A DNA stretch of 64,000 bases from Cytophagales bacterium (lineage in GTDB: Bacteria; Bacteroidota; Bacteroidia; Cytophagales; VRUD01): assembly GCA_019456305.1 (NCBI GenBank), contig VRUD01000004.1:1-64000 (forward strand), written 5' to 3'. Every line of letters begins with the position of its first letter. Within the stretch, counting starts at the first letter, position 1. Below are positions 27,490-56,340 of this stretch, in pieces. The notes below the pieces were generated by a model. The model ran no database searches and was not told the DNA's origin. It saw only the letters and a program-made list of their open reading frames with translations. The translations under genes and the position numbers were made by a program.

Positions 27490-27580
27490 AAAAAAGTTTT
27501 TTTTAGCAAAGGCGCAAAATCTTTTAAACCTTTTCTTTGCGAGCTTTGCGTCTTTGCGAGAAACTTTTACTTTATAGACA
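27490..27580. repeat. GCAAAG-type low-complexity repeat
   Basis: Words such as TCTTTGCGAGCTTTGCGTC and TTTGCGAGAAAC. The same word family occurs at 36925-36965, where it codes for the N-terminus of the DUF4270 protein, and near 37030. Confidence 0.6.
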
Positions 27581-27610
27581 GACACTAATTAGTAATTCGC
27601 AGTAAAGTTC

Positions 27611-29170: not shown

Positions 29171-30328
29171 ATGTTAGTCAACGGCAAACCATACCGAACA
29201 ATCCGGATAAAACCTGATGATCCAAAGATCATCCAAATCATTGACCAGCGAAAGCTGCCTTTTGAATTTGTGATAGAAAACCTTTCTACTGTAAATGATG
29301 CTGCCCGGGCTATCAAAGAAATGTATGTGCGTGGTGCTCCGCTTATCGGTGTTACGGCTGCCTATGGAATGTATTTAGCCGCATTACAGGTTTCAAAACC
29401 TGATGATAATTTTATGCAGAAGGCAGCAGGGAAGTTGAAAGCTACCCGGCCTACAGCCGTAAATCTTCTATGGGCTGTTGAAAAACAGCTAAAAGCTATC
29501 AGCCAGGGAAAAACTATATTAGAAATGAGGGACATTGCCCTAAAAACAGCCAATCAATTGGCTGAAGCCGATGTGCAAACCTGTAAAAAGATTGGAGAAT
29601 ATGGATTAAGTTTAATTGAAAAAATATATCAAAATAAAAAAGAACAGCCCGTCAACATCCTTACCCATTGCAATGCCGGCTGGTTAGCCTGTGTTGACTA
29701 TGGAACGGCAACCGCACCTATGTTTTTAGCGCATGATAAAGGTATTCCCATTCACATCTGGGTAGATGAAACCCGCCCGAGAAACCAGGGCTCAAAACTT
29801 ACTGCATGGGAATTGGCTCAGTATGGTATCCCACATACAGTGATCGTAGATAGTGCAGGCGGGCATTTGATGCAGCGTGGCTTGGTAGATATGGTTTTAG
29901 TTGGAACAGACCGTACTACTTATACGGGGGACGTTGCCAATAAAATAGGCACCTACCCGAAGGCATTAGCGGCAAAAGATAATAGCATTCCTTTTTATGT
30001 TGCATTGCCTTCATCTTCAATTGACTGGAACATACGGGACGGGTTAAAAGAAATACCTATAGAACAACGTGATGCGGATGAGGTACACTACGTTGATGGC
30101 TGGTGTGAGGGAGTTGGTAGAATAAGTGGCAGTAGTAGTAACAGTAGCAGTAAAAAGGTACGTATTACACCGAAGCGAAGTCCTGCAGCCAATTATGGAT
30201 TTGATGTTACCCCTGCCCGCTTGGTTACTGCGCTGATCACAGAAAGAGGTATTTGCCTGCCCAATGAGGAAAGTATATCAGGGCTGTTTCCTGAAAATCA
30301 GGAAATGCGCGTAGAGCATGGCGCATAG
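29171..30328 (+). CDS. mtnA: S-methyl-5-thioribose-1-phosphate isomerase
   Basis: 385 aa from ATG 29171 (MLVNGKPYRTIRI); an in-frame TTG lies at 29156. Methionine salvage: aldose-ketose isomerisation of MTR-1-P to MTRu-1-P. MYVRGAPLIGVTAAYG, ILTHCNAGWLAC (catalytic Cys region) and GTDRTTYTGDVANKIGTY (catalytic Asp region) are present. Odd: a SSSNSSS low-complexity insert (about residues 323-332) just before the conserved C-terminal NYGFDVTPARLVTALITERG. The last residues (RVEHGA) and the TAG stop are formed by the start of a heptamer array. Confidence 0.93.
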   Translation: MLVNGKPYRTIRIKPDDPKIIQIIDQRKLPFEFVIENLSTVNDAARAIKEMYVRGAPLIGVTAAYGMYLAALQVSKPDDNFMQKAAGKLKATRPTAVNLLWAVEKQLKAISQGKTILEMRDIALKTANQLAEADVQTCKKIGEYGLSLIEKIYQNKKEQPVNILTHCNAGWLACVDYGTATAPMFLAHDKGIPIHIWVDETRPRNQGSKLTAWELAQYGIPHTVIVDSAGGHLMQRGLVDMVLVGTDRTTYTGDVANKIGTYPKALAAKDNSIPFYVALPSSSIDWNIRDGLKEIPIEQRDADEVHYVDGWCEGVGRISGSSSNSSSKKVRITPKRSPAANYGFDVTPARLVTALITERGICLPNEESISGLFPENQEMRVEHGA

Positions 30329-30368
30329 AGCATAGAGCATAGAGCATAGAGCATAGAGCATAGAGTTA
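30313..30368. repeat. AGAGCAT heptamer array (8 units)
   Basis: AGAGCAT, GGCGCAT, AGAGCAT x5, AGAGTTA. The junction CAT|AG gives TAG once per unit. It begins inside the mtnA reading frame and supplies its stop. Confidence 0.85.
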
Positions 30369-48477: not shown

Positions 48478-49821
48478 TTAACATATTTGTTGCAACCCTA
48501 ATATCTTACTATAGTAAATCAACGAATCTCTGATATCATCTTTTGAAACAAAATTATCAAACGAAGCTTTACCAATTTCCTTCAGTAATGTACAGTTTAT
48601 TTTGCCATTTTCATTTTTCTTATCCTGTAAAGTAATTGAAATAATATTTTCAAAATCTGCTTCATCAATTTCTATCTTGCCAAATGTAGAAATAATATAA
48701 TTTGTAATGCTGGATAGTTCATCTTTTGAGACCATGCCTCTTTGGTGGGAAATAAAGCTTTCGCAGACGATGCCAATAGCTATGGCTTCACCATGGCGTA
48801 AATTATTTGGTGATTTGATGATTTGGTGATTTGATGATTTGTTAACTGCCGGCTGCCGACTGCTGACTGCCGACTGCTGACTGCCGACTGCCGGCTGCCG
48901 ACTGCTGACTGCCGACTGCTGACTGCCGACTGCCGGCTGCTGACTACCGACTGCCGACTGCTGACTACCGACTGCCGACTGCCGGCTGCTGACTGCCGGC
49001 TGCTGACTGCTGACCGCTGACTGCCGGTTGCCGACTGCCAGTTGCCGGCTGCCGACTGCCGACTGCTTATTGGGATTTGTTCGCTCAAGATAAAAACTTT
49101 CCAGCGCATGGCCAATAGTATGTCCGAAGTTCAATACCTTTCTTAATCCTTTTTCTTCCGGATCATTTTTAATAATGGCTAATTTTACATCAACAGAGTG
49201 GGTAATAAGGGCTTCCCAATCCTGATCCTCTAAACCTTTTTGTGATATTTCGTTCCATTTTTGCCTGTCAGCGATCAAACAATGTTTGATGATCTCTGCA
49301 AAGCCGGATAATTTTTCTTTTTTATCAAGCGTTTTCAGAAAGCCTGGATAAATGAACACGGCTTCGGGGTCTTTGAACAGCCCGATATGATTTTTGTAAT
49401 TTTGAAAATCCACCCCTATCTTTCCGCCTATGCTTGCATCTACTTGTGCCAGGAGCGTAGTGGGAACCTGAATAAAGGCAATGCCCCGTTTAAAGGTAGC
49501 TGCACAAAAACCTCCCATGTCCCCAATCACACCTCCGCCAAGGTTAATGATCAGCGATCTCTTGTCAAAATGCAGATCGGTGAGTTGCTGCCATATATTT
49601 TCACAAGTGCTTAGGTTTTTATGATGTTCACCACTGGGGATGGTTATAATTGAAGATTGAAGATTGACCTGCCCCGACAAAGTCGGGGCGATTGACGATT
49701 GAAGAATAGGAAGGCAAAATTTTTGGGAGTTTTCGTCAGTGATTACAGCTATTTTTGTAAAATGTTTTTTATTTAGAAAAGCGTTAAGGTCTTTTAAACT
49801 TTGTTTGCCGATAGAAAGCAT
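48478..49821 (-). CDS. aroB: 3-dehydroquinate synthase with a large repeat insert
   Basis: 447 aa; AroB is normally about 350. Second step of the shikimate pathway. NAD/phosphate motifs LIINLGGGVIGDMGGFCAAT and QVPTTLLAQVDASIGGKIGVDF are intact. Zinc-ligand region: LNFGHTIGHALES (His234/His238 in this numbering) and LRHGEAIAIG (His343), normally about 16 residues apart. Between them are about 90 residues of QSAVGSRQ-type low-complexity sequence encoded by 32 heptamers plus NHQIIKSPNN from an octamer repeat. A second insert (about residues 45-55) is read from a 17-nt hairpin. Both inserts keep the frame. Order aroB - M16 - DAHP synthase. Confidence 0.9.
   Translation of the reverse strand: MLSIGKQSLKDLNAFLNKKHFTKIAVITDENSQKFCLPILQSSIAPTLSGQVNLQSSIITIPSGEHHKNLSTCENIWQQLTDLHFDKRSLIINLGGGVIGDMGGFCAATFKRGIAFIQVPTTLLAQVDASIGGKIGVDFQNYKNHIGLFKDPEAVFIYPGFLKTLDKKEKLSGFAEIIKHCLIADRQKWNEISQKGLEDQDWEALITHSVDVKLAIIKNDPEEKGLRKVLNFGHTIGHALESFYLERTNPNKQSAVGSRQLAVGNRQSAVSSQQPAVSSRQSAVGSQQSAVGSQQPAVGSQQSAVSSRQPAVGSQQSAVSSRQPAVNKSSNHQIIKSPNNLRHGEAIAIGIVCESFISHQRGMVSKDELSSITNYIISTFGKIEIDEADFENIISITLQDKKNENGKINCTLLKEIGKASFDNFVSKDDIRDSLIYYSKILGLQQIC
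48806..48837. repeat. octamer array inside aroB
   Basis: TTTGGTGA and TTTGATGA alternating, four units, directly beside the heptamer tract; encodes the HQIIKSPN part of the insert. Confidence 0.8.
48846..49069. repeat. 32-unit heptamer array inside aroB
   Basis: I aligned every unit: 32 consecutive 7-mers (CTGCCGA, CTGCTGA, CTGCCGG and minor variants such as CTACCGA, TTGCCGG) from 48846 to 49069 with no insertion or deletion. Total 224 nt, which is not a multiple of 3. All the units are free of stop codons in the aroB frame; another frame on the same strand is open too. Confidence 0.95.
49649..49711. repeat. ATTGAAG heptamers and 17-nt hairpin inside aroB
   Basis: ATTGAAG, ATTGAAG, ATTGACC at 49649-49669, then CCCCGAC-AAA-GTCGGGG at 49672-49688 (perfect 7-3-7), then ATTGACG, ATTGAAG. 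On the aroB strand this encodes the QSSIAPTLSGQVNLQSS segment absent from typical AroB. Confidence 0.85.
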
Positions 49822-56203: not shown

Positions 56204-56340
56204 GAAATCCGAAACCACTAATTACACTAATTACACTAAATTAGTGAAATTCTTAATTAGTGTAATTCGTGTAATTAGTGGTTTCAAAATTAGTGAAATT
56301 CTTAATTAGTGTAATTCGTGTAATTAGTGGTTTCAAAATC
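56204..56340. repeat. tandem repeat of about 55 nt
   Basis: Two near-identical copies of a unit containing TTAGTGAAATTCTTAATTAG, TGTAATTCGTGTAATTAGTG and GTTTCAAAAT, preceded by the inverse words CCACTAATTACACTAATTAC. AT-rich; the array ends about 50 nt upstream of the ABC permease. Confidence 0.75.

Follow-up and report, generated by a model that had tools for sequence, protein, structure and literature searches.

How can the gene for a conserved enzyme carry a long run of seven-nucleotide repeats between the codons for its metal ligands and still be read as a single protein? The question is raised by aroB, which encodes 3-dehydroquinate synthase (DHQS), in a stretch of 64,000 nt from a Cytophagales bacterium (contig VRUD01000004.1 of assembly GCA_019456305.1, positions 1 to 64,000; here called the window).

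The aroB gene and its product

The reading frame of aroB (48478..49821, minus strand) was unbroken through the insert. As the preliminary description had held, the array lies in an intact gene: there was a single open reading frame of 447 aa, and its product scored 328.6 bits against TIGR01357, the curated NCBI family for AroB, passing the cut-off of 305 bits. This is the sole copy in the genome (4.25 Mb, 98% complete). The DHQ_synthase profile had one match, the window aroB, which contained no stops, and a search for a second aroB across the 98%-complete genome found none.

The insert separates residues that we take to be zinc ligands, namely E176, H234 and H343. E176 (49294..49296, minus strand), the presumed glutamate ligand, falls in an invariant column, and the identity of the residue was checked. 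The motif GHTIGHALE (residues 233-241; 49099..49125, minus strand), which includes the first putative histidine ligand, H234, and also H238, is on the upstream side of the insert. HGEA (residues 343-346; 48784..48795, minus strand), which begins with the putative ligand H343, is on the downstream side, and H234 and H343 are 109 residues apart. In 29 relatives from the same order, the closest relatives available, the linker from GHTxGHAxE to HGEA was 11-22 aa long, versus 101 aa here, or approximately 90 additional residues, in agreement with the original estimate. In two of these relatives the linker is longer and hydrophilic (17 and 22 aa), indicating that this site tolerates changes in length.

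The rest of the protein was well conserved. Compared to the 29 relatives, the window AroB kept every invariant column, including E176, H234 and H343, and deviated at 5 of 95 near-invariant columns, mostly by conservative substitutions. The ratio of C-terminal to N-terminal conservation around the insert resembled that of the relatives. The proportion being normal, the half of AroB downstream from the insert is not decaying.

The DHQS fold was predicted on both sides of the insert, with the insert itself disordered. The preliminary description had named structure prediction as a check. The AF2 model (pTM 0.75) had pLDDT of ~34 for residues 254-335 and ~90 for the flanks, and in Foldseek it matched solved DHQS structures over its whole length, the best match being V. 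cholerae AroB (3okf; TM 0.85 by target length). The model thus favors one of the two interpretations offered at first, that the loop is tolerated because it is outside the fold.

The heptamer array and its reading frame

The array consists of 32 consecutive slots of 7 nt with no indel (48846..49069, minus strand; consensus CTGCCGA on the plus strand). Cutting the sequence into slots confirmed the number and the boundaries that had been described, and TRF called the array at 48845-49066; the last slot, CTGCTTA, is degenerate. The octamer tract reported next to it is real and belongs to the same insert (48805..48841, minus strand; 4.6 units of ATTTGRTG, encoding SSNHQIIKSPN). The array is not a chance occurrence. 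With two mismatches allowed, a 21-mer array pattern had 454 matches in the genome, versus 0 for the reversed pattern. An Rfam search of the window gave no match, and we found no literature, among open-licence papers, on heptamer arrays within aroB or similar enzymes.

Any frame of the array reads as one heptapeptide because three heptamers are 21 nt. In aroB the translation is a degenerate SAVGSRQ/SAVGSQQ repeat, seven amino acids for every three units. The exception is that some of the unit variants introduce a stop in another frame. Changes of -2, -1, +1 or +2 units in silico gave products of 280-351 aa that had lost HGEA, whereas a change of three units kept HGEA, bearing out the frame arithmetic of the preliminary description.

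The array is degenerate, with nine unit types among the 32 slots, in the order ABCBCB ABCBCB A CDB CDB ACACC E A F G H B B I. It contains a perfect duplication with a period of 42 nt (six units twice plus an overhang; 48846..48940, minus strand) and a duplication with a period of 21 nt (three units twice, with the rare unit CTACCGA; 48937..48982, minus strand). Neither length disturbs the frame. Unit shuffling reached the 7-unit run at a lag of six units in 0.2% of cases (p=0.002); the run was not predicted beforehand. The excess of lags that are multiples of three was weak (p=0.035) and sought post hoc; when sought in the arrays of valS and the antiporter (see below), it was absent from both. 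The longest perfect period-7 stretch in the aroB array is 18 nt, and single-unit slippage should therefore be slow compared to that in a perfect array.

Two further properties of the array were observed. Of 26 differences between units (48846-49069), which are not independent of each other, 25 were transitions (25:1), and several other long arrays of the same family had a similar bias. Single strands of the array folded better than shuffled sequences, though not as one palindrome.

Heptamer arrays across the genome

Period-7 arrays were about 25 times denser in this genome than in its relatives. In 1.18 Mb, made up of the largest contigs in order of size, there were 65.5 arrays per Mb, compared to 2.6 per Mb in 20 relatives of the same order, whose 390 kb of sequence contained one period-7 array. 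Period-8 arrays occurred at 22.1 per Mb here versus none in the 20 relatives, and period-6 arrays at 5.1 per Mb here. Our overall sample was ~1.97 of 4.25 Mb and was partly picked for matches to ACTGCCG, hence the use of the largest contigs only for densities. There are several heptamer families, of which ACTGCCG, the family of the aroB array, was the commonest in the sample. Within the class this family is uncommon, occurring in 6 of 395 genomes, and scattered phyla also have matches to it. We considered loss of mismatch repair as a cause of the expansion and rejected it, as the genome encodes MutS.

Arrays were found in frame in about 12 conserved genes. The ~1.97 Mb contained 143 period-7 arrays, 31 of them within open reading frames that were 150 aa or longer and extended 15 aa or more beyond either end of the array. 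The genes with in-frame arrays include valS, aroE, ribF, cdsA and mnmH and those for a CoA-transferase III, an aldolase/SDR protein, an NhaC-type antiporter, a SpoIIE phosphatase, a GNAT protein and a tamB-like protein; in the conserved genes, family matches span the array or flank it on both sides. The array in aroB had the most units of those found in conserved genes in this sample; the arrays in valS, the antiporter and the SpoIIE phosphatase had 20.7, 13.4 and 11.9 units.

Individual arrays differed in position and character. In valS (valine-tRNA ligase; L117:11390-14188), the ~21 AAACTCG heptamers are near the boundary of the editing domain. In aroE, which is also a shikimate gene (L067:1694-2479), there are ~5 AAAGTTC heptamers. 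Four arrays near N-termini (L117:10283-11263, L083:7251-9800, L087:10978-13626 and L074:9886-12591) are in an orientation that reads as hydrophobic and signal peptide-like, whereas those further inside proteins generally read as hydrophilic.

We also looked for genes split by an array that is out of frame. Within the portion of the genome that we surveyed, a search that detects flanking open stretches of at least ~60 aa yielded 17 candidate pairs, and all those with nameable families were different neighboring genes and not two halves of one gene.

Many of the ACTGCCG arrays are within MITE-like elements, which we call E1, E2 and E3. E1 has the terminal repeat TAATTAGTGTCTGTCTATAA and eight paired copies (L069:10189-10331, L333:18064-18206, L071:5931-6122, L112:13976-14167, L079:2973-3171, L341:12328-12526, L099:3866-4223 and L122:14626-15006). 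E2 has the terminal repeat GGCTTTAGTTTAAACTAACGT and six copies of 257-328 nt (L071:12255-12541, L073:3531-3819, L078:6373-6700, L092:6284-6579, L120:9134-9390 and L125:4-295), five of which have perfect 8-bp target duplications. E3 is a third dispersed family around heptamer arrays, with ends GAAACAAGT ... ACTTGTTT (L080:8364-8517, L109:649-773, L115:3246-3288 and L333:7513-7617). The ends of these elements, both terminal inverted repeats and target duplications, were sought in the flanks of the aroB insert and were absent.

Copies of E1 with near-identical ends were 192 versus 199 nt long, a difference of one heptamer, and copies of E2 varied more widely in array length. This comparison, which is indirect and made within one genome, suggests that heptamers are gained and lost more rapidly than the flanks of the elements accumulate mutations. 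Near-identical copies could serve as an internal clock for the gain and loss of heptamer units.

Two E1 copies of 143 nt have the E1 ends and a different interior that is free of heptamers, as though one cargo had been exchanged for another. The window also has an isolated 20-nt match to the terminal repeat of E1 (27572-27591). The longest word shared by the aroB array and another array was 41 nt and was composed of common unit variants; we judged it uninformative as a sign of copying from array to array, and set that idea aside.

Explanations for the insert

The array in aroB combines features of neuO and of the Rickettsia palindromic elements, yet lacks one defining property of each. neuO, a capsule-modifying gene of the E. 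coli K1 prophage CUS-3, has a heptanucleotide VNTR (poly-psi) of 2 to 93 copies of AAGACTC at its 5' end; the gene is switched, being active only in frame, and the repeat peptide is disordered in the crystal (PMC3046976). It is the closest system in how it works: the array is intragenic, three units make one heptapeptide, and length modulo three sets the frame. However, the units of neuO are reported to be near-perfect copies of one sequence, whereas those of aroB are of nine types among 32, with 18 nt of perfect repeat at most, and are between putative metal ligands. In addition, aroB encodes a biosynthetic enzyme, and its array is known from a single genome. The Rickettsia elements (105-146 bp) are in frame in many conserved proteins, including a guanylate kinase that is active despite the insert (PMC2229807). 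They are the closest in protein outcome, being dispersed repeats that became part of conserved proteins with the frame unbroken, but they are palindromic, whereas the aroB array is a direct tandem satellite without palindromic ends.

Other known repeats resemble the arrays elsewhere in this genome. Direct repeats of the heptamer TAACTGA in Beggiatoaceae, Cyanobacteria and Bacteroidetes are mainly intergenic (PMC4679880), and GGGNATC heptamer repeats occur in Xanthomonas and Nostoc (PMC4692102). Both have one dominant unit, and the cases in open reading frames are mostly at protein ends or in hypothetical genes (PMC4679880, PMC4692102). Like these, the arrays described here are dispersed genome-wide, with period 7 over-represented, and some are long and some within open reading frames. 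Unlike these, they are built from several different units and include long arrays in the interiors of housekeeping enzymes. E1 and E2 resemble bacterial MITEs in their terminal inverted repeats and, for E2, the 8-bp target duplications, but they hold heptamer arrays of variable length as cargo, and the aroB array has no MITE ends.

The insert is probably best explained as part of a lineage-specific expansion of a heptamer satellite that loops tolerate and that selection keeps in frame. A selfish or neutral satellite of the ACTGCCG family would have expanded genome-wide, partly as cargo of the small MITE-like elements, and would have been seeded and then grown within aroB at a loop whose length was already variable. 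Because a stop-free heptamer gives the same heptapeptide in each frame, the translation of such an array would be a hydrophilic linker, long and disordered, in any register, and only the total length of the array modulo three would matter. Selection would purge alleles that shift the frame and retain array lengths by which both halves of the enzyme are connected, and AroB would thereby stay active with the 90-residue loop outside its fold. We infer the activity of the enzyme, growth by slippage or unequal exchange, and purifying selection on the frame, the last from a single genome. Two findings are against this explanation: the aroB insert has no MITE flanks, and the excess of multiples of three is weak and post hoc.

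It is unlikely that the array is a phase-variable switch, in which slippage by one or two heptamers would toggle AroB off and on; this part of the initial interpretation is possible in principle but found no support. neuO shows that an intragenic heptanucleotide VNTR can toggle a gene (PMC3046976), loss or gain of one or two units in aroB would remove HGEA, and unit number does differ among MITE copies in the same genome. However, the array is degenerate, its clearest duplications (42 and 21 nt) are multiples of three units, and genes broken by arrays were not found in the part of the genome surveyed. Furthermore, aroB is a single-copy housekeeping gene, and valS, in which an off state is expected to be lethal, also has an array in frame.

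We consider it still more doubtful that the insert is functional, that is, a disordered loop selected for tuning or localizing AroB. Its position between two putative zinc ligands, adjoining the active site, and the increase in neuO activity with heptad number (PMC3046976) would fit such a role, but similar inserts are in unrelated loops of unrelated proteins, and the sequence tracks the genome-wide satellite, with no AroB-specific motif.

An incorrect unit number or junction in the assembly is improbable. The genome is a draft of 159 contigs, repeats are difficult for short reads, and some arrays abut runs of N; however, unit variants make most of the aroB array distinguishable, and both halves of the enzyme share one frame across the array, as is the case for arrays in many other genes. 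Finally, the preliminary description had noted that aroB might be a pseudogene with a second intact copy elsewhere, and while a 90-residue insert does separate the metal ligands, decay is barely credible with no second aroB, invariant residues kept and normal conservation on either side of the insert.

A further reading, which we regard as unlikely, is that the genome-wide satellite is a source of protein insertions: because its unit is stop-free and reads alike in each frame, it would repeatedly grow into the disordered loops of essential enzymes, and slippage in a population would produce a shifting minority of cells that are AroB-negative or defective in other genes. The heptamer arrays described so far mostly either switch surface genes from within or are intergenic, and here long arrays are inside the cores of housekeeping enzymes. 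They make it possible to test how repeats that are not multiples of three survive in essential genes, and how much disordered insert can be tolerated between metal ligands of one enzyme.

Two other repeats were observed in the window. A TAGAGCA heptamer array of 7.7 units (30312-30365) is at the end of a gene, and there is a perfect 49-nt tandem duplication (AAATTAGTGAAATTC...) at 56238-56339.
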